Source: Verrucomicrobiota bacterium
GTDB taxonomy: Bacteria; Verrucomicrobiota; Verrucomicrobiia; Limisphaerales; Fontisphaeraceae
Direction of reading: 5' to 3'
Assembly (NCBI GenBank): GCA_037139415.1
Contig: JBAXGN010000042.1
Coordinates: 1 to 45,872 of the forward strand
Length of the DNA stretch: 45,872 nt
In this document: positions 1 through 45,746 of the stretch, one piece after another
Numbering within the stretch: position 1 is the first letter of the stretch
How the letters are laid out: each line of letters begins with the position of its first letter
Position numbers and translations under genes: made by a program
The notes under the pieces: generated by a model
What the model saw: the letters and a program-made list of their open reading frames with translations, nothing else
What the model was told of the DNA's origin: nothing
Database searches by the model: none

Positions 1-3000
1 CGGTTGCGTCACAATCGTCAACGTATCCGGTACCTGGATCACCAACCGCGCCACCGCACTGGTCACCGATCCCATGAAGTTGGCGGCGACAACAACATAA
101 GAACCAGAATCAGAAGCTAGGAGATTGAAGATAGAATAGGAGGAATTGGTCGCGGCCAGGATGGCCGCGCCACCTTTGTACCATTGATAGGTGGGGACCG
201 GCTGTCCCACGGCGGTCACTTGGAACGTCGCCGTGTCTCCTGGCGCGTTGGTCTGGCTTTGCGGTTGGGTCAGAATGACGGGCCGGTCAGCGATAGTCAG
301 CACCGCCACCGCGCTGGTAATGGAACCGCCCGAGTTCTGGAGTACGACGGCATAGCTGCCAGCGTCGCTTGATTGCAAATTGAAAATTGTAAATTGCAAA
401 TTGGTAGCCCCACTGATGACTGATAACTGATTACTGTTTACTGATTTATACCACTGGTACGTGGGCGTTGGCAACCCGGTCCCGCTGACGGTAAAGCTGG
501 CGGTGGTGCCCACGCCGTTCGTGCGGCTCTGTGGTTGGGTGGTGATGGCCGGGGGATTGATCACGGTCTGCACCACTAACACCGCCACGGCACTGGTTAC
601 CGAGCCAAAGCTGTTGGCAATCACCACTCGGTAATACCCCGCATCGCCCAATTTGAGATTTGAGATTTGAAATATGAAATTGGTTGCGCCACTGATGACT
701 GATAACTGATTACTGTTCACTAATCTAAACCACTGATATGCAAGCGGAGCCGTGCCGCCAGCCTGCACAGTGAAGCTTGCGTTGCCGCCCACCAGGTTGG
801 TCTGACTTTGCGGCTGGGTAAAGATCAGCGGGGCCGAGGTTTGAATCACCGTCAAAGTCGCCACCGCACTGGTCACGACTCCGTAGGCATTACTGATCAC
901 CACTTGGTAGTTGCCCGCGTCGCTTATTCCGCAATCCGCAATCTGCAATCCGAAATTAGTTGCTCCACTGATGACTGTTAACTGATTACTGTTCACTGTC
1001 TTATACCACTGGTAACCTAACGGCTGCGCTCCATTGGCCGTGACACTTAGGGATACCGTGTCCCCAGCCACGACGGTCTGGCTTTGCGGTTGGCTGGTGA
1101 TGTAAGGCGGATCGGTGGTAAGCACCGTCAAGGTCGCCACCAGGCTGGTCGTACTCCCCGAGGCATTCGTGACCACCACCGTATAATTACCTGCTTGGGC
1201 ACCTTGGACATTGGCCAGAGTCAACGGGGCATTGGTGGCACCCGATAACGGGCTGCCGTTAAACCGCCATTGGTAGAACAGCGGTTGTGCTCCGGTGACG
1301 CCCACCGCAAACGTGGCGCTGCCGCCGGTATTAACGGTCTGCGACTGCGGATGAGTGGTGATGAACGGTGGGGTGATCGTCTCAATGTCCAGGCTCCAGC
1401 CCTCGGCAATATAGCCGCTGTCACCGGCAGAGCTATCCAATACATACAGCAACCAGTCACCATTCGGGTCCTGTCCTTTCAGGGTTGCGAGTGTGGTCGC
1501 GTAGGGGGCGGCGGGTGCCGGGGTGGTTAACGAACCTGTGGTGGCCGCCGTGGGTTTATAGGTTCCGGAGACCGGAGAACCCGACACTGTACTGACGGCC
1601 AAGTCATCGAAGGTTAAATTGACCTGGTTCGCCCCGCCATTGCCGGCAGCCGACATCAAAAGCACCTTTTGCCCGATGGGCGATACCAGCAACACCCGCA
1701 CGTCCGACATGTACGTGTGCGTGAATTTGCGCAGCGTGACTTTTACCCGCTGAATTTGGTTAGCCATACCGCTAACGTTGATGGTGGCGGGATATGGACT
1801 GGCAGGCGCATTGTCGTTGATCGCAATCTGCGCACTATTGGTGAATTGCCCGTTGACCAACCCGGCGGAGACATAGAGTGTGGCCACCGCGCTGGTAGTG
1901 GAACCATAGGCGTTGGTCAGCACAATCCAATATTTGCCTTGATCCGTTTTCTGTACGTTGGGAACACTCAGGTTGGTGCTGGAAGCCCATGGCAGTATGG
2001 CACCATCCTTATACCATTGGCAGGTGATGGGGGCGGTACCGTCGGCGACCACGGAGAAACTGGCACCGGCACCCGCTGCATTCGACACACTCTGTGGCTG
2101 GCTGAGAAACACCGGCGGCGACAGCACCGCAACCGTGGCTACCGCACTGGTCACAGACGCATACGCATTGGTCACCACCACATAAAAGTTGCCAGCCTGG
2201 GAACTTTGCAGGTTGCCAAACGGCAAAGTGGCACTATTGGCACCCAACAGCGCCGCGCCATCTTTATACCATTGGAAGTACAGGGGAGTCGAACCACTGA
2301 CGCGCACCATCAGGCTGGTGACGGAACCGAACAACGCCGTAAAGCCTTGCGGGTCCTGCTTGATGCTGGCCGGGTCCACGATGGTCAACGTGGCCATCGC
2401 GCTGGTAGCGGAGCCTAGATAATTGCTGACGATCACATAATAACTGCCCTCATCCAGCCGTTGAACATTCGTGAGCTGCAATGAATTGCTGGTCGCGCCG
2501 GATATCATGTTAAAATCTTTGTACCATTGGAAAGACAGCGGGGCGGCCCCGGACACCGTCACACCAAAACTTGCCGTGGCGCCAAAAAGCTTGGTCTGGC
2601 TTTGCGGCTGGGTCGTAATCCCCGGGGGATACGCCAGCGTCAAGGTGGCCACCTGGCTGGTCGCCATCCCGTAGGCGTTGCTCACGATGCAATAATAGTT
2701 GCCCGCATCGGCCGCTTGAACACTGGCAAGTGTGAATTGACTGGCTGTGGCGGAAGGCATCGGGATGCCACCATGCAACCACTGATAATACAATGGCAAT
2801 GTGCCGGAAGCCATTACACTAAATCGTGCCGCACCACCTACCGTTGCCACCTGATTGGTGGGTTGAATGGATAGGGTAGGGGGCAATAAAACGGTCAACC
2901 CGGCCACCGCACTGGTAGTGCTGCCATACGCATTGCTAACCACCACACTGTAGTTGCCTGCGTTGGCACCTTGGATGCTGTTGAATGTCAGCGTGCTATT

Positions 3001-6000
3001 TGTCGCCAAACTGAGATTGGTGCCATTAAACCGCCACTGGTAATAAATGGGGGCAGTCCCTGTGACATTCACACTGAAACTGACGGATGTTCCCGCCAAG
3101 TTAGTCTGACTTTGTGGTGGCATGGTGACATTGGGTGGATAGAGCAATGTCAAGGTGGCCACTGTACTGGTGATTGATCCGTAAGCATTCGTCACCACCA
3201 CATCATAATTACCAGCATTCGCTCCCTGAATTGTGCTCAGCGTCAATGTGCCGCTGGTGGCTCCGTTCAAATTGGCTCCATTGAAGCGCCATTGATAGAA
3301 AAACGGCATGGTGCCCGAAGCGGTCACACCAAAATTTGCCGTGCTTCCTAAGGTATTCGTTAGACTTAGCGGTTGTACAGTAATGCTTGGTGGAATCACC
3401 ACCGTCAGTGTTCCCACCAGACTGGTGACCGACCCGTAATAATTGGTTGCCACAACGTAATAGTTACCCGATTGAGCCGGTTGCGCGTTGTTGAAGGCCA
3501 ACGTGCTATTAGTAGCATTAGGAACCGCCATGCCGTTTTGATACCACTGATACCAGAGTCCCGCCCCGGACACTACGACGTTCAGAATGGCGTTACCGCC
3601 AGCCATGATGTCCTGATTAGCCAGCGGTGTGATACTGGCGGGAGCGGGAGTCAGTACCAGCACCATGCCATCCAGGCCGCCTTGGTTATTCAGGGTGAAA
3701 GGTCCGGCCGTTCCAGTGCCTGCAAAGGACCCGCCAGCCGCAATATCGCCGCCCAAGCCAAGCGCCACGGTGCCAAACTGGCCGACAGGTGAACTGGTCA
3801 CGAGGCGGGACCACAACCCCTTGCCGTTACCATCGAATTTGATCAGGTAGGCATTACGACCGCTGGGAGAAAAATTAAACCCGCCGCCCGTGCCGCCCAC
3901 ATCCACGTCACCGCCCACCAGCACGTTGCCGAATTGATCCACCGCCAAGGCGCTGATATCATCCGTCCCAGGTCCACCTACTTGCTGTGCCCAAATCCCG
4001 TTGCCGTTCGTATCGCATTTCATTACAAAACCATCTGATGGCCCTGCGCCCGTCAAACCAAAGGTGCTGTTTACGAAGTAGCCCCCCACGAAGATATTCC
4101 CCTGGTGGTCCAGCGCCAAGTTGCGTCCACGGGCATCGCCGGAACTGGTCAAGCTCTTAGCCCATACTGCCGTGCCGGTACTATCGAGTTTGGTCAAAAA
4201 GGTATTCTCGTGGCCGCTGTTGCCAGAGGAGACCTGAATGCCGCCAATGTTTCCCCCATCGCCCATGACGCCCACGACGAAGACGGCATTATTGGTATCC
4301 ACTGCCACGCACTGCCCAAATAGCCCCTGGCTGCTGGGACTGGGCGTACCTCGCTGCTGCCAGCGGAAGTTGCCGTTTGCATCGTATTTTACTACGAACA
4401 GGTTGTTCCCGCCGGTGCTGCCGGACAGCAGGACAGCCGGTGCCCCATCAAATTGCGCGTCAGCACTATAATAGCCGCTGAAGATGACCGCATCCGTCGA
4501 ATCCACCGCGACGCTCACCCCTTCGTCTCCGCTGCTGGTGCTGAACTCACGCCGAGCCCAAAGCGCAATGCCGGCGGGGTTGTATTTCACCACGAAGCAG
4601 TTCCGGCCACCGGTATGGGGCAGTGAAACCGTTCCGAAGGAAATTGTGTCGGTCGTGGACCCGGGCAGGTAAACGTTGCCGGCGCTATCCACTGCAATCT
4701 GGATGCCCCAATCATCCGTGCCGACGCCACCGGCACTTCGAGCCCAGAGCAGGTTTCCCGCGCGATCGTACTTGGCTAGGAACAAATCCCGATCACCCAC
4801 GCTGGTCAAAACATAGCCGCCGAGAGTCAGCGTATTGTAATAGTAACCCGCCACGTAGAGATTCCCGGACGCATCGTAAACCATCGCGTTGACAGCTTCT
4901 GCTCCGGCAGTGCCATAGGTTTTGAACCAGCCGTAGTTGGGCGAGTACTCCACGCCCAACCCCGCCACAATGCTGGTGACCGCGCCGTAATAATTGGTTG
5001 CCACAACGTAATAGTTGCCTGATTGAGCCGGTTGCGCGTTGTTGAAGACCAACGTGCTATTGGTAGCATTAGGAACCGCCATGCCGTTTTGATACCACTG
5101 ATACCAAAGTCCTGCCCCAGACATCCCAGCATTCAGAGTGGCGTTGCCGCCCGCTAAGATGCCCTGATTGGCTAGGGGCACAGTGATGGTTGGTGCCGGT
5201 GTCAGCACCAGCACCATCCCGTCCTGACTGCCCACGTTATTCATGGTAAACGTCCCCGAAGTGGCGGTGCCCGCAAATGAACCGCCCGCCGCCAGATCGC
5301 CATTCCCGGAGTACGCCACGCTGTAAAATGTGCCCACCGGCGAACTGGTGACGAGACGAGACCACAACCCACGGCCACTGGCATCCAATTTAAGCAAAAA
5401 GGCATTACGCCCGTTGGGTGAGAAACTGAATCCGCCGCCCGTGCCGCCGTTATCAATGGTCCCGCCCACCAACACGTTTCCGAATTGATCCACCGCCAGA
5501 CTGTTAACGCCGTCATCTCCCGGCCCCCCCACGGTCTGTGCCCAGAGAACGTTGCCGCTGCTATCGCATTTCAATACATACCCATCTGCCACTCCGCCAC
5601 AGGTTAGCGAGAATCCTCCCAAAGTGGTATTGTCCAGGTAGGTGCCTCCAAGGAAGATATTGCCTTGCCGGTCCAACGCCAGGCTGCGACCGAGGGCATC
5701 ACCGGAACTGGCCAAACTCCGAGCCCACACCGCATTGCCGTCGCTGTCGAACTTGGCCAAGAACATATTCGCGTGGCCGTTGTTATCGGAAGCCACCTGA
5801 ATGCCCCCGAAGTTCCCTCCATTACCCATGCTACCCACCACGAAGGCGGCATTATTCGAATCCACCGCCACACTCTGCCCATACGGGCTGCCGGTACCGC
5901 TCTGCTGCCAGAGGAAGTTGCCATTGGAGTCATATTTCACCAGGAACATGTTGTCCGCGGTGCCGGCGGTCAGGACGGACGGAGCGCCGTCAAATTGCAC

Positions 6001-6360
6001 GTTGGCATCGTAGTAGCCCGTAAAGAGAACCGCGCCAGTGGAATCGACGGCCACGCCTCCGCCATAGTCGGTGGCGCTGCTGGCCCCGCGCCGGACCCAC
6101 TGGAAGTTGCCGTTGGCATCATATTTCACCAGGAAGCAGTCCTGGCCGCCGACAGCGGTTAGTGTAGCGGTTCCGAAGGAAATCGTGCCATTGTAATTGC
6201 CGGGTAAATAAATGTTTCCGGCGTTATCCGTGGCCACCTGAAGGCCCCAGTTATCCGTGCCGCCGCTGCCGGCGCTCCGGGCCCACAGGAGGTTGCCCGC
6301 GCGATCATATTTGGCCACGAACAAGTCTTGCCCGCCCGCACTAGAAAAAACATTGGTACC
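1..6360 (-). CDS. Giant Ig-like/SBBP repeat protein, continuation after frameshift (partial)
   Basis: This frame stays open from the frameshift at 6359-6361 to the left window edge, about 2,120 codons, and is one protein with the preceding entry. In coding order it holds the rest of propeller block 2, an Ig-like domain, propeller block 3 (from about 4953), then about six Ig-like domains. A P-domain-like segment follows (about 1850 down to 1395; proprotein-convertase/choice-of-anchor type with a GQDPNGDWLLYV motif), then at least five more Ig-like domains. Each Ig domain shows the usual Q-W-Y/R and D-A-G-x-Y pattern. Three consecutive domains (about 1000 down to 370) carry heptamer-derived insertions described separately. 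No catalytic domain is visible; an adhesive or matrix role is likely but inferred. The C-terminus and any anchor lie outside the window. Confidence 0.8.
370..447 (-). repeat. Composite heptamer repeat inside Ig domain, copy 1
   Basis: On the minus strand two short heptamer arrays follow each other. The first is of AGTNATC type (about 445 to 412); the second is of TTGCAAT/TTTCAAT type (about 403 to 371). They are separated by about 8 bases encoding G-A-T-N. The first array encodes an S-V-N-S-N-Q-L-S-V-I-S loop not found in the other Ig domains of this protein; the second encodes the following strand. Confidence 0.75.
650..722 (-). repeat. Composite heptamer repeat inside Ig domain, copy 2
   Basis: Same two-part arrangement as the copy at 370-447. 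An AGTNATC-type array (about 722 to 691) is followed by a TCTCAAA/TTTCAAA-type heptamer array (about 688 to 650). The frame remains open and the domain keeps its DAGYY motif. Confidence 0.75.
925..998 (-). repeat. Composite heptamer repeat inside Ig domain, copy 3
   Basis: An AGTNATC-type array (about 998 to 967) is followed by a TTGCGGA/TTGCAGA array (about 956 to 925), encoding a D-C-G-I-S stretch in place of the usual strand. The second array is the same heptamer family as the intergenic copy at 9269-9301. Confidence 0.75.
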
Positions 6361-8056
6361 CAAGACCAAGGGTATTGTTGTAAGTGCCGGCCACGATCAG
6401 GTTGCCAGCAGTATCATACGTCATGGAAACGACGCGCTCGTCGCCCGGAGTGCCGTAGGTCTTGAACCAGCCGTAGTTGGGCGAATATTCGACACTAAGC
6501 GTCGCCACTGCGCTGGTGACCGCGCCGTAATAATTGGTTGCCACAACGCAATAGTTGCCTGATTGAGCCGGTTGCGCGTTGTTGAAGACCAACGTGCTAT
6601 TGGTGGCGTTGGTAATGGCCGCACCGTTGCCGAACCACTGATATGAAAGGCCAGAGCCGCTGATCCCGGCGTTAAACGTCGCATTGCCCCCCGCCAGGAT
6701 GCCCTGGTTGGCGAGTTGGTTGGTGATGGCGGGAGCGGGCGTTAGGACCACAACCATACCATCCTGTCCCCCTTGGTTGTTCAGGGTGAACGGTCCAGCC
6801 GCTCCCGTGCCATTAAAGTAACCGCCCGCTGCCACATCACCGTCCAAACCCAGTGCCGCCGCGAGGAATACGCCCACGGGTGAACTGGTGACGAGGCGAG
6901 CCCAGAGACCGTTGCCGTTGCCATCAAACTTGAGCAGGAAGGCATTAGCCCCACTGGGAGAAAAGTTAAACCCACCACCGCCGGACGCGGCGTCCACGGC
7001 CCCACCCACCAGCACGTTGCCAAATTGATCCACGGCCAAGGCCGTGACACTGTCATTCCCCGGGCCAGCCACGCGCTGGGCCCAAATCCCGTTGCCGTTC
7101 GCATCGCATTTCAACACATAACCATCCGAGTTTCCGGCCGCTGGCAGAGCAAAACCGGCCAAGGTGGTGTTGTTTATGTAATAGCCCCCTACGAAGATAT
7201 TCCCCTGGCGATCCAGCGCGATGTTGCGCGCCAAGCCACCGCCGGAACTGCTTAAGCTCTTAGCCCAAACCGCATTGCCGGTGCTGTCCAGCTTGGCCAA
7301 GAAAGGGTTCATATTGCCGTTGTTGCCAGAGGCGAACTGGATACCGCCAATGTTGCCCCCGTCGCCCATAGCGCCCACGACGAAGACCGAGTTATTGGTA
7401 TCCACGGCCACGCACTGGCCGAACAAAGCCTGGCTGGTGGGACTAGGGGTTCCGCGCTGTTGCCAGACGAAGTTGCCGCTGGCATCATATTTCACCACGA
7501 ACAGATTATTCCCGCCCGTGCTGCCGGACCGCAGGACAGCCGGCGCCCCGTCAAATTGCGCGTCGGCATTATACATACCACTGAAAATGACCGCATCCGT
7601 CGAATCCACTGTGACACCCACCGCTGCGTCGTTACTGCTGGAACTGGACTCATGGCGCGCCCAGAGGGCAATGCCGGAAGAGTTGTACTTCACCACGAAG
7701 CAATTTGCCCCGCCACTATGGGGCAGCGAAACGGTGCCAAAGGAAATCGTGTCGGTCGCGAAGCCGGGCAGGTAAACGTTGCCCGCTCTGTCCACGGCAA
7801 TCTGGATGCCCCAGTCATCCGTGCCAGCGCCACCTGCGCTTCGGGCCCAGAGGAGGTTTCCGGCACGATCATACTTGGCCAGGAACAAATCCCGGTCCCC
7901 CACGCTGGTCAAAACGTACGAGCCCAGAGTCAGCGTGTTGTAATAGTGGCCCGCTACGTAGAGATTTCCGGCCGCATCGTAAACCATCGCGTTGACCGCT
8001 TCTGCTCCGGCGGTGCCATAAGTTTTGAACCAGCCGTAGTTGGGCGAATACTCCAC
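3400..8056 (-). repeat. Three tandem 1.55-kb modules (propeller plus Ig-like domain)
   Basis: The codons for the E-Y-S-P-N-Y-G-W-F motif occur at about 8056, 6493 and 4953, giving unit lengths of 1563 and 1540 bases (1539 without the extra frameshift base). Each unit runs through the same succession of SBBP-type repeats and ends with an Ig-like domain carrying a LANQ(G/D)I motif. DNA similarity is high along whole stretches, so the units look like fairly recent internal duplications. They can be used to locate the frameshift in the middle unit. Confidence 0.85.
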
Positions 8057-9207: not shown

Positions 9208-9268
9208 TCAATTTCAGTTCCCATTTTTATGCCAGCTAATTTTTCTGCCATGTTGGGTATTTTGGATT

Positions 9269-9339
9269 CATTCCGCACTCCGCATTCCGCATTCCGAAAT
9301 CAAGGGTTCCCTGTGGCTGATTACTGTTCACTGATGACT
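9269..9339 (-). repeat. Intergenic composite heptamer repeat
   Basis: On the minus strand an AGTNATC/AGTGAAC array (9339 to about 9316) is followed, after about 15 bases, by a GCGGAAT-type array (about 9301 to 9270). Both heptamer families, and their order and orientation, match the copy inside the Ig domain at 925-998. Confidence 0.75.
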
Positions 9340-44396: not shown

Positions 44397-45746
44397 TTAG
44401 GCCGAATCCACGGCCTCTCCGGTGGGCCGACCGGGTTTGCGCTTGGGAATCCACTGGTCCACAAACAACCGCCACCAGCGCAGCCAGCCAGCGGGGATGC
44501 AGATGCGCGCCACCTCATACCGGGCGTGCGCGCTCACGCTCACCGGCACGGTCAGCAGGTAACGGATGGTCGTGCGGATGCGCCAGGTCTGCGCGTCTTC
44601 GGGAAGGTCCAATAACTTGAGGGTCACCAGCAGGTTGTAGGCCAGCATGGCGATGGCGTAGAACGCCTGGTTGGCGATCAAGTTCTGGCACGGCGGATGG
44701 TGCAGGTCGAGCCCGCTGAGCACTTCGCTGAAGCCCTGTTCCTTGGCCCCCTTGAGCCGGTGCCGCTCAAAGACCGCCTGCGGACCGTGGTCCCCCGCTT
44801 GGCCCACCACGTACGCATAGTGCCACAGCAAGTCCCCGTCATTTTTCCAGCGGGCCACCGCAAAGCGCTGCGCCTGCTGGCATTCGCCGGGCTGGTGCTT
44901 GACCCATGCATATTGCTCCTGCCGCTGGTCGGCGGGCGGCAAGGGGCTCCACTGGCCCTCGGGCAGATCGGCCGCGAGCCGATCCAGTTTGTCGGTCCAC
45001 TTGTTATAGCTGACGCTCCAGCGAGTAAAGCGGCCCTGTTCAATGCCGTTGAGAAACTTGCCCGCGCTCGACCCACTGTCGGCATAGAAGTAACTGGGGC
45101 GCGCCTGCCAGCGCGGCTGATGCTCGGCGAGCAATACCGCCAGATGCGCGCTCACGTCCCCGGCCCCGTCGAGAATCCCGTCCAACAGCCAGGGCCCAAA
45201 CCAGAGGGTCTGCCAACTCAACGCCCGGTTGCCTTCATAGTTAACGCGCGCCCCTTCAAACTTATGCCCCTCGACTTCGATCTCGGTGTCGTCAAAAAAC
45301 ACCTCAGCTTCCCCGGCGTGCAGCCACCGCCCCGGCTTGGCCTGCTGGCTGGCCCAGTCCACGAACTGCGCGTTGATCTGGTGCAGTTCCCGCACGCTCG
45401 CGGGGGTTTGCGCCCGCAGCCATTCGCCCAGCGTGGTTTGGTCGGCGCCTTTCCTCAGGCCGAGCAAGTGCATCAGCACGCGGTCCTGCCCCAAGCGCTC
45501 GGCATCCGCGAGCGAAGCCCCGCCACTGGTCAGGGTGAAGAGCAACTGGGCCACGTTGGCCACCGGCGAGAAGCCCGCGCCCGTGCGTTTGCGAACCTCC
45601 AATGCGGGCGTTTGGTGGATGCGTTGCCACAAGCCCGCGCGGCGACAGAGCGCATCGATCAACACTTGGCCGCCGTGGGCGGTCGCCTGGTCAGAGTTGG
45701 TCAGCAGGAGGTGTAGTTTGGTTTTTTGTTTCGTAAAGAGCGGCAT
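44397..45746 (-). CDS. IS1380-family transposase
   Basis: 449 residues, full length for the family. DDE-type: a first acidic block EVFFDDTEIEVEGHKFEG, a second block SYFYADSGSSAGKFL, and the C-terminal region QGFSEVLSGLDLHHPPCQN followed by ANQAFYAIAMLAYNL, typical of IS1380 transposases with the catalytic Glu in it. The frame is intact, so it may be active. The start at 45746 is followed by MPLFTKQKTK. Upstream (45747-45800) an AT-rich stretch with TATATC could supply a promoter. Confidence 0.9.
   Translation of the reverse strand: MPLFTKQKTKLHLLLTNSDQATAHGGQVLIDALCRRAGLWQRIHQTPALEVRKRTGAGFSPVANVAQLLFTLTSGGASLADAERLGQDRVLMHLLGLRKGADQTTLGEWLRAQTPASVRELHQINAQFVDWASQQAKPGRWLHAGEAEVFFDDTEIEVEGHKFEGARVNYEGNRALSWQTLWFGPWLLDGILDGAGDVSAHLAVLLAEHQPRWQARPSYFYADSGSSAGKFLNGIEQGRFTRWSVSYNKWTDKLDRLAADLPEGQWSPLPPADQRQEQYAWVKHQPGECQQAQRFAVARWKNDGDLLWHYAYVVGQAGDHGPQAVFERHRLKGAKEQGFSEVLSGLDLHHPPCQNLIANQAFYAIAMLAYNLLVTLKLLDLPEDAQTWRIRTTIRYLLTVPVSVSAHARYEVARICIPAGWLRWWRLFVDQWIPKRKPGRPTGEAVDSA

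Follow-up and report, generated by a model that had tools for sequence, protein, structure and literature searches.

How does repeat DNA with a unit of seven nucleotides, which is not a multiple of three, come to stand as coding sequence within immunoglobulin (Ig) domains? The question is raised by the first gene of a 45,872-nt contig (JBAXGN010000042.1, assembly GCA_037139415.1) from a Verrucomicrobiota bacterium, hereafter called the window; its source is one draft genome of 378 contigs. The product of ORF 1..6369 matched the Pfam families Ig_3 (12 stretches), I-set (11 stretches), SBBP and P_proprotein, and the best I-set stretch (residues 1940-2022) coincides with the third array-bearing domain of the gene. 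The relevant features of the window are as follows.

1..6369, minus strand: giant Ig/beta-propeller-repeat protein gene, 2123 codons, cut at the contig edge (window base 1)
853..1128, minus strand: Ig domain 1, with arrays (Ig profile)
967..999, minus strand: array 1 of domain 1, AGTNANC-type heptamers, 33 nt, C-C' hairpin
956..966, minus strand: spacer of domain 1, GGAGCAACTAA, G-A-T-N codons
922..955, minus strand: array 2 of domain 1, TTGCGGA-type, strand E; close matches outside Ig cores
577..852, minus strand: Ig domain 2, with arrays (Ig profile)
691..723, minus strand: array 1 of domain 2, AGTNANC-type heptamers, 33 nt
680..690, minus strand: spacer of domain 2, GGCGCAACCAA
646..679, minus strand: array 2 of domain 2, TCTCAAA-type; one match within 5/25 bases outside Ig cores
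298..567, minus strand: Ig domain 3, with arrays (Ig profile); modelled, mean pLDDT 93.5
412..444, minus strand: array 1 of domain 3, AGTNANC-type heptamers, 33 nt
401..411, minus strand: spacer of domain 3, GGGGCTACCAA
367..400, minus strand: array 2 of domain 3, TTGCAAT-type heptamers
43..297, minus strand: next Ig domain, without array 1, strand E 13/18 at lag 7; array-less structural control

In coding order, the codons for W-Y-K or W-F-R are followed in each of the three domains by array 1 (33 nt), an 11-nt spacer encoding G-A-T-N, and a 34-nt array 2 that ends at the D of D-A-G. Tandem Repeats Finder reported period-7 arrays at 372-403, 412-446, 650-681, 691-715, 928-956 and 974-999, the last being overlapped by a period-14 array at 967-998. 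Periodicity was scored as identity at lag n in 18-nt windows of the Trp-Tyr core of each domain, with a threshold of 14/18. The lag-7 score was 16/18 in all three domains, against null means of 9.8-10.6 from 200 synonymous-codon shuffles per domain (p = 0.005, the smallest value possible with this number of shuffles). The array calls and the shuffle test together bear out the preliminary description of this locus, according to which three consecutive Ig domains carry two heptamer arrays each; its view that repeat DNA serves here as coding sequence with the frame kept likewise holds for the Ig domains of ORF 1..6369. Its statement that the other Ig domains lack arrays is correct at the 14/18 threshold, with the reservation that the neighbouring domain 43-297 scores 13 (p = 0.015), and strand E of this domain is possibly a decayed array 2. 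Beyond the three window domains, arrays were present in nine further Ig ORFs of the sampled DNA.

The arrays had also been described as replacing a loop and the strand that follows it. Alignment with array-less window domains showed that this is accurate for array 2, which substitutes strand E without change of length, whereas array 1 lengthens the hairpin between strands C and C' by five residues (net +15 nt). AlphaFold2 models of domain 3 and of its array-less neighbour reached mean pLDDT values of 93.5 and 93.8, respectively. In the model of the array domain, strand C spans residues 36-44 and strand C' residues 47-50; in that of the neighbour, strand C spans residues 36-41 and only a two-residue bridge is formed at 44-45. 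The best Foldseek matches of the array domain model were Ig domains of titin and Robo and, given the Pfam profile match and the predicted Ig sandwich fold, the domain can be assigned to the I-set/Ig_3 families.

The period-7 signal was then scored in 357 Ig domains in which both Trp and Tyr could be mapped, collected from 61 stretches with an Ig profile built from the window. Within the same genome, lag 7 reached the threshold in 24 of 219 sampled domains and lag 14 likewise in 24, while none of the 219 did so at lags 4, 5, 6, 8, 9, 10, 11, 12 or 13. These 24 array domains are spread over ten ORFs on nine contigs, and synonymous-codon shuffles gave p values of 0.005-0.01 for them. Among 138 Ig domains from ten related genomes (20 stretches), none reached the threshold at lag 7 and one did at lag 9. 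The sample is biased towards arrays, the first own-genome stretches having mostly been taken for arrays (with the window, 21 of 90 domains pass), and a fairer rate is given by 20 own-genome stretches taken for Ig hits alone, with 3 passing domains in 129, which is by itself not clearly above 0/138 in the relatives. The weight of the argument is carried by the lag controls and by the genome-wide pattern searches described below.

The position of the arrays was examined in the 32 ORFs of this genome with at least two mapped Ig domains each (59,662 codons). The midpoints of 24 of the 25 period-7 arrays fell within the Trp-Tyr core, which makes up 11% of the bases (nominal P = 2.8e-22, the domains being related by descent and not independent). 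The exceptional array begins at base 6 of a stop-to-stop ORF and probably precedes the true start. No arrays were found in the 32 ORFs at lags 5, 6 or 8-11.

Pattern and profile searches placed the array-bearing loop in this genome alone, within the DNA covered. Array 1 followed by SGATN codons (two mismatches allowed) was found 22 times in the genome, 21 of these in Ig domains, with no match for the reversed control and none in 115 relatives; the remaining match, on contig C178, has a spacer with two mismatches and no Ig domain. A composite mobile element consisting of array 1, the GATN spacer and array 2 was considered and rejected on these counts: with 21 of 22 matches in Ig domains and a mismatched spacer in the other, the spacer appears to be part of the domain. 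A profile of the loop matched at least 23 places of the genome over positions 1-33 or 1-34 (23 of 469 candidates scored). None of the candidates scored in 292 further genomes of the order (at most 23 per genome) spanned the full loop, and the 16 genomes that did match the profile matched only from position 10-13 on, which is the ordinary part. The preliminary description had reasoned that relatives encoding the same loops with unrelated codons would mark the repeats as selected protein motifs; the scored candidates of these 292 genomes contained no such full loop. In a collection of named genomes, 21 raw matches to the peptide pattern Q[LWS][ST]VISGAT were obtained, none of them confirmed as a relative, and an exact-pattern scan of that collection, from which our genome may itself be absent, returned no locus.

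The heptamers themselves are widely dispersed. A search with three heptamer units gave 200 matches, against 6 for the reversed control. In own-genome stretches chosen partly for arrays, 101 period-7 arrays were counted with ORFs taken from start to stop. Ig genes accounted for 25 of them and other ORFs of 100 or more amino acids, many of them short or with the array near the ORF start, for 40, while 36 lay in none. One array outside long ORFs, on contig C23 (L060:6174-6351), comprises 24 AGTNATC units that change blockwise from AGTAATC to AGTTATC and then mostly to AGTGATC, a picture of local homogenisation. Arrays of four AGTNANC units numbered 113 in this genome; 12 of 115 relatives had 1-13 matches each, and in several of these the reversed control equalled or exceeded the AGTNANC count. 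The reversed control gave 59 matches in genome G083 and 22 in G099, both of the same order, which suggests that they harbour other families of heptamers; Ig domains sampled in G083 and G099 held no arrays at threshold. A TTGCAAT-type array beside GCNACNAA was found, among 320 genomes of the order, in our genome and in four of the 319 others, and the five places in those four showed neither an Ig context, in three frames on the strand of the pattern, nor an Ig profile hit.

Arrays inside and outside Ig domains draw on shared units. The 21 Ig and 21 non-Ig AGTNANC arrays compared have their main units in common (AGTTATC, AGTGATC, AGTCATC, AGTAATC and AGTGAAC), and identity was 0.771 between Ig arrays, 0.771 between Ig and non-Ig arrays and 0.809 between non-Ig arrays. 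For strand E, the 23 sequences compared came from domains with a score of 13 or more, and three of them lack a clear array 2. Nine of the 23 matched non-Ig DNA of the genome within 5/25 bases, against 3/23 for the reversed control and 0/23 in relatives; the four TTGCGGA- and TTGCAAT-like sequences had 12-48 such matches each and the other five one each. Nine AATCCTT array sites were located, and eight of these lie outside Ig domains; the reversed control matched nowhere. TTTAGCC arrays occurred at 16 places, eight in an Ig gene on contig C38 and eight elsewhere, with 19 for the reversed control, CCGANTT, which is not neutral since it resembles the genome's own AATTCCG repeats. The stretches fetched around the non-Ig AATCCTT and TTTAGCC places gave no Ig profile hit.

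Comparable repeats are known from other bacteria. Cyanobacterial STRR heptanucleotide repeats are short tandem heptamers scattered through the genome, and the arrays described here resemble them in being short, tandem and dispersed. An open-access literature search returned no title or abstract on the use of STRR at Ig slots, nor any on heptamer arrays in Ig domains. TAACTGA direct repeats are reported from Beggiatoaceae, Cyanobacteria and Bacteroidetes (MacGregor 2015, PMC4679880), and a Thiomargarita paper also reports this heptamer (PMC4853749). In the former report, the heptamer is the same as ours, its reverse complement TCAGTTA being AGTTATC in another register, and it is both tandem and dispersed; in reverse orientation it forms an open frame for LSVISYQ, as in the Ig loops of this genome (PMC4679880). 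With tandem heptamer units of the TAACTGA family and many copies outside long genes, the present arrays belong to the TAACTGA/STRR type. That report places the Beggiatoaceae repeats mostly directly upstream of start codons and, within ORFs, mainly near protein ends or in hypothetical proteins (PMC4679880); unlike these, the present arrays sit inside a known domain fold, where they recur at two fixed slots in many domains, and are accompanied by second arrays of other heptamers. Rickettsia palindromic elements, described in the review PMC10969869 as in-frame elements of about 150 bp in many unrelated genes, apparently compatible with the fold, are alike in being repeat DNA in frame within genes. 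The arrays here differ from them as direct heptamer repeats of about 28-35 nt, set between conserved codons at the same slots of one domain family, with units that differ between paralogues, and cannot be counted among them. What we describe is a known kind of repeat in an apparently new use.

On balance we think it probable, with a good deal of room for doubt, that dispersed heptamer repeats were taken up as coding sequence at two slots of the Ig fold and spread by domain duplication. A genome-wide set of short tandem arrays of TAACTGA/STRR-type heptamers would be the likely donor, pieces of which would have entered the coding DNA of giant repeat proteins at slot 1, between strands C and C', and at slot 2, over strand E; entry may have been by short conversion, insertion or template switching. 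Array 1 would thereby have extended the C-C' hairpin by five residues and array 2 would have re-encoded strand E. After entry the arrays would turn over as DNA, by swap, gain and loss of units, besides being duplicated with their domains, and uptake would be limited by the frame and the fold, including the length of the hairpin. The effect on the Ig protein may have been mostly neutral. No donor event was seen. The passage of noncoding repeats into protein usually has to be reconstructed from traces that are old and eroded; this single genome would hold clean and decayed stages next to each other at one and the same pair of slots, with array-less paralogues for comparison, and would offer a direct test of the limits that frame, stop codons and fold set on the domestication of repeat DNA.

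The unit length is of consequence for such uptake. Since seven is not a multiple of three, a pure heptamer array encodes one seven-residue cycle whatever the frame, and any phase would thus be acceptable, provided that the length keeps the frame and no stop falls in a critical codon. Of 18 units translated, 13 are free of stops in the coding sense, and AGTAATC, AGTGATC, AGTGAAC, TTTAGCC and AATCCTT each give one stop per cycle. In the opposite orientation the four AGTNATC units give one or two stops per cycle and AGTGAAC none. The four variable bases of array 1 fall in the codons GTN, Nnn, TNA and GTN, and A or G followed by A was found there in 16, 16, 0 and 8 of 21 arrays, compared with 64 of 109 non-Ig units. 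The zero at the third position (TNA) was dropped as a proof of translation, being largely forced because the domains had been collected from open frames. Profile searches that read through stops are less circular, and these revealed no stop in 150 scored Ig hits (of 388 candidates) or in 23 loop hits, all from this genome. Six Ig domains on C38 (L053) were examined for the strand-E codon that would be TAG in pure TTTAGCC: it reads CAG, CAA or CCG in five of them, and the other, w522, lacks a TTTAGCC array.

Several observations run counter to uptake from the dispersed repeats. Only nine of the 23 strand-E sequences have a non-Ig match, and TTTAGCC outside Ig domains does not exceed its reversed control. 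Moreover, the length, phase and borders of array 1 are near-uniform, and random insertion would need strict selection on hairpin length. Array 1 was present in 25 domains whose lag-7 score was 13 or higher; two of these, with a misplaced spacer (L073 w1384 and L077 w2431), were left out, and array 1 measured 33 nt in 21 of the 23 remaining. The exceptions are one array of 39 nt, as with an added heptamer and a missing base, and one of 64 nt. Among the cores chosen for being 34 residues long, array 1 is weaker, and again 33 nt long, in L056 w2399 and L057 w2286, and it is absent from L074 and L077 w1993.

Such uniformity is what would be expected had one founder Ig domain gained both arrays once, all other cases arising by duplication, recombination, decay and turnover of array 2 units with no repeated uptake; we hold this to be possible, if rather unlikely. 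The constant borders and 33-nt length of array 1 fit such a history, as does the similar unit order in the three window domains and in domain w1168 of contig C79. When domains were compared by their flanks, the nearest neighbour was another array domain for 15 of 27 array domains, as a founder would predict, but an array-less one for the other 12. Third-position agreement is similarly divided. In two C38 genes the spacer (0.67 and 0.81) is about as alike as array 1 (0.74 and 0.79, respectively), and whole domains or tracts were probably copied there; among the window domains, however, agreement is 0.22 in the spacer and 0.94 in array 1, and the arrays are 91-94% identical where the flanks are 56-60%.

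The paralogues of the window gene weigh against a single founder. The window gene and genes on contigs C135 and C79 are collinear paralogues, with amino-acid identities of 64% (window-C135), 69% (C79-C135) and 56% (window-C79), and both the presence of arrays and the heptamer type vary between corresponding slots. At the first slot after the P_proprotein domain, the window gene has array 1 and TTGCGGA units, C135 has TTGCAAT units without array 1, and C79, also without array 1, has a short AATCCTT-like start just before the contig end. In that terminal domain (C79:1-80, L055), Ig similarity is lost after the AATCCTT-like start of strand E while the same frame stays open, and this loss may be a contig-end effect. 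At the second slot, both arrays are present in the window gene and absent from C135 (flanks 79% and 76% identical), and the third slot is alike in the two (flanks 90% and 97%). Before the P domain, C79 carries both arrays and C135 none at that slot (flanks 71% and 80%). Domains with array 2 and no array 1 exist, as does the reverse, which a single founder would not readily explain. Taken together, the paralogue differences, the C38 spacers and the neighbour counts indicate that copying and separate acquisition both seem to have occurred.

In-frame arrays in an unrelated gene pair also argue against a single founder domain. Two adjacent PMT_2-TPR membrane protein paralogues on C38 (L053:3035-5071 and L053:10101-12203) are 98% identical over the 133 residues preceding the array site, which lies mid-gene, shortly past the PMT_2 match. 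One has CAATCCG units there and the other AATTCCG units, with equal borders, and the second paralogue has additional arrays that make it 75 nt longer in total. Array uptake thus extends beyond Ig genes. A TTCTGAC-type heptamer array was also noted on contig C25 in a prepilin-like ORF with N_methyl and DUF1559 matches (L064:9613-10620, minus strand); its predicted peptide, KLEVRSQKLEAL, directly precedes the N_methyl motif.

The 64-nt array 1, in C38 domain w612, is the largest length change seen, and it is not a plain gain of three heptamers, the frame-preserving change put forward in the preliminary description. The array is 31 nt longer than in sister domains (four heptamers plus 3 nt), and array 2 of the same domain is one heptamer shorter, at 27 instead of 34 nt. 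The spacer between them, GGAGCCACGAA, is nearly unchanged as DNA and is read in another frame, giving W-S-H-E instead of G-A-T-N, and the frame is regained after array 2. In this one case, length changes in two adjacent repeats cancel within a single domain; the order in which they took place would be a matter of reconstruction. We regard it as improbable, though worth considering, that the two arrays form a self-compensating cassette in which a one-heptamer change in array 1 is cancelled in array 2, altering mainly the frame of the spacer. If this were so, Ig surface hairpins could vary in length and sequence with the protein retained, and the two slots would be resupplied from the genome-wide heptamer repeats.

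A stronger version, in which the two slots are contingency sites where arrays are exchanged or slip so as to vary the Ig hairpins in a programmed manner, is very unlikely in our judgement. Simple-sequence contingency loci, which underlie phase variation, have units that are not a multiple of three, so that unit changes shift the frame. The arrays here share this feature, with a unit of seven, but differ in their near-constant length and in having no OFF form among the scored hits. Programmed variation would accord with the restriction of arrays to two slots, with different heptamers at the same slot of three paralogues (that of C79 being partial, at a contig end) and with domain w612, where, relative to its sisters, array 1 differs by +28 and +3 nt and array 2 by -7 nt, and the spacer is read in another frame. 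It was given its low probability because the arrays, of 4-5 imperfect units, are short and nearly constant in length among the domains of one draft genome, and because no frame-off copy was met among the 150 scored Ig hits.

Convergence at the protein level, with loop and strand peptides selected and the DNA periodicity a by-product, was rejected: the encoded strand does keep an alternating hydrophobic pattern in a confidently modelled domain, but synonymous shuffles of the 24 domains do not reproduce the periodicity, the lag controls are specific to seven and its multiple, period 7 is out of step with the codons, and the units also occur outside Ig genes. An assembly or binning artefact, conceivable in a draft of 378 contigs with the window gene cut by a contig edge, is made very improbable by the recurrence of the arrays in ten ORFs on nine contigs, in open frames and at a consistent position.

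Elsewhere in the window, CATTCCG- and AGTNANC-type arrays lie near each other at 9268-9339, outside large ORFs, close to a GGCAGAAAAATTAGCTGGCA-like stretch that recurs beside some other arrays. At the far end of the window, positions 44397-45746 hold an ORF for a DDE transposase (PF13701).
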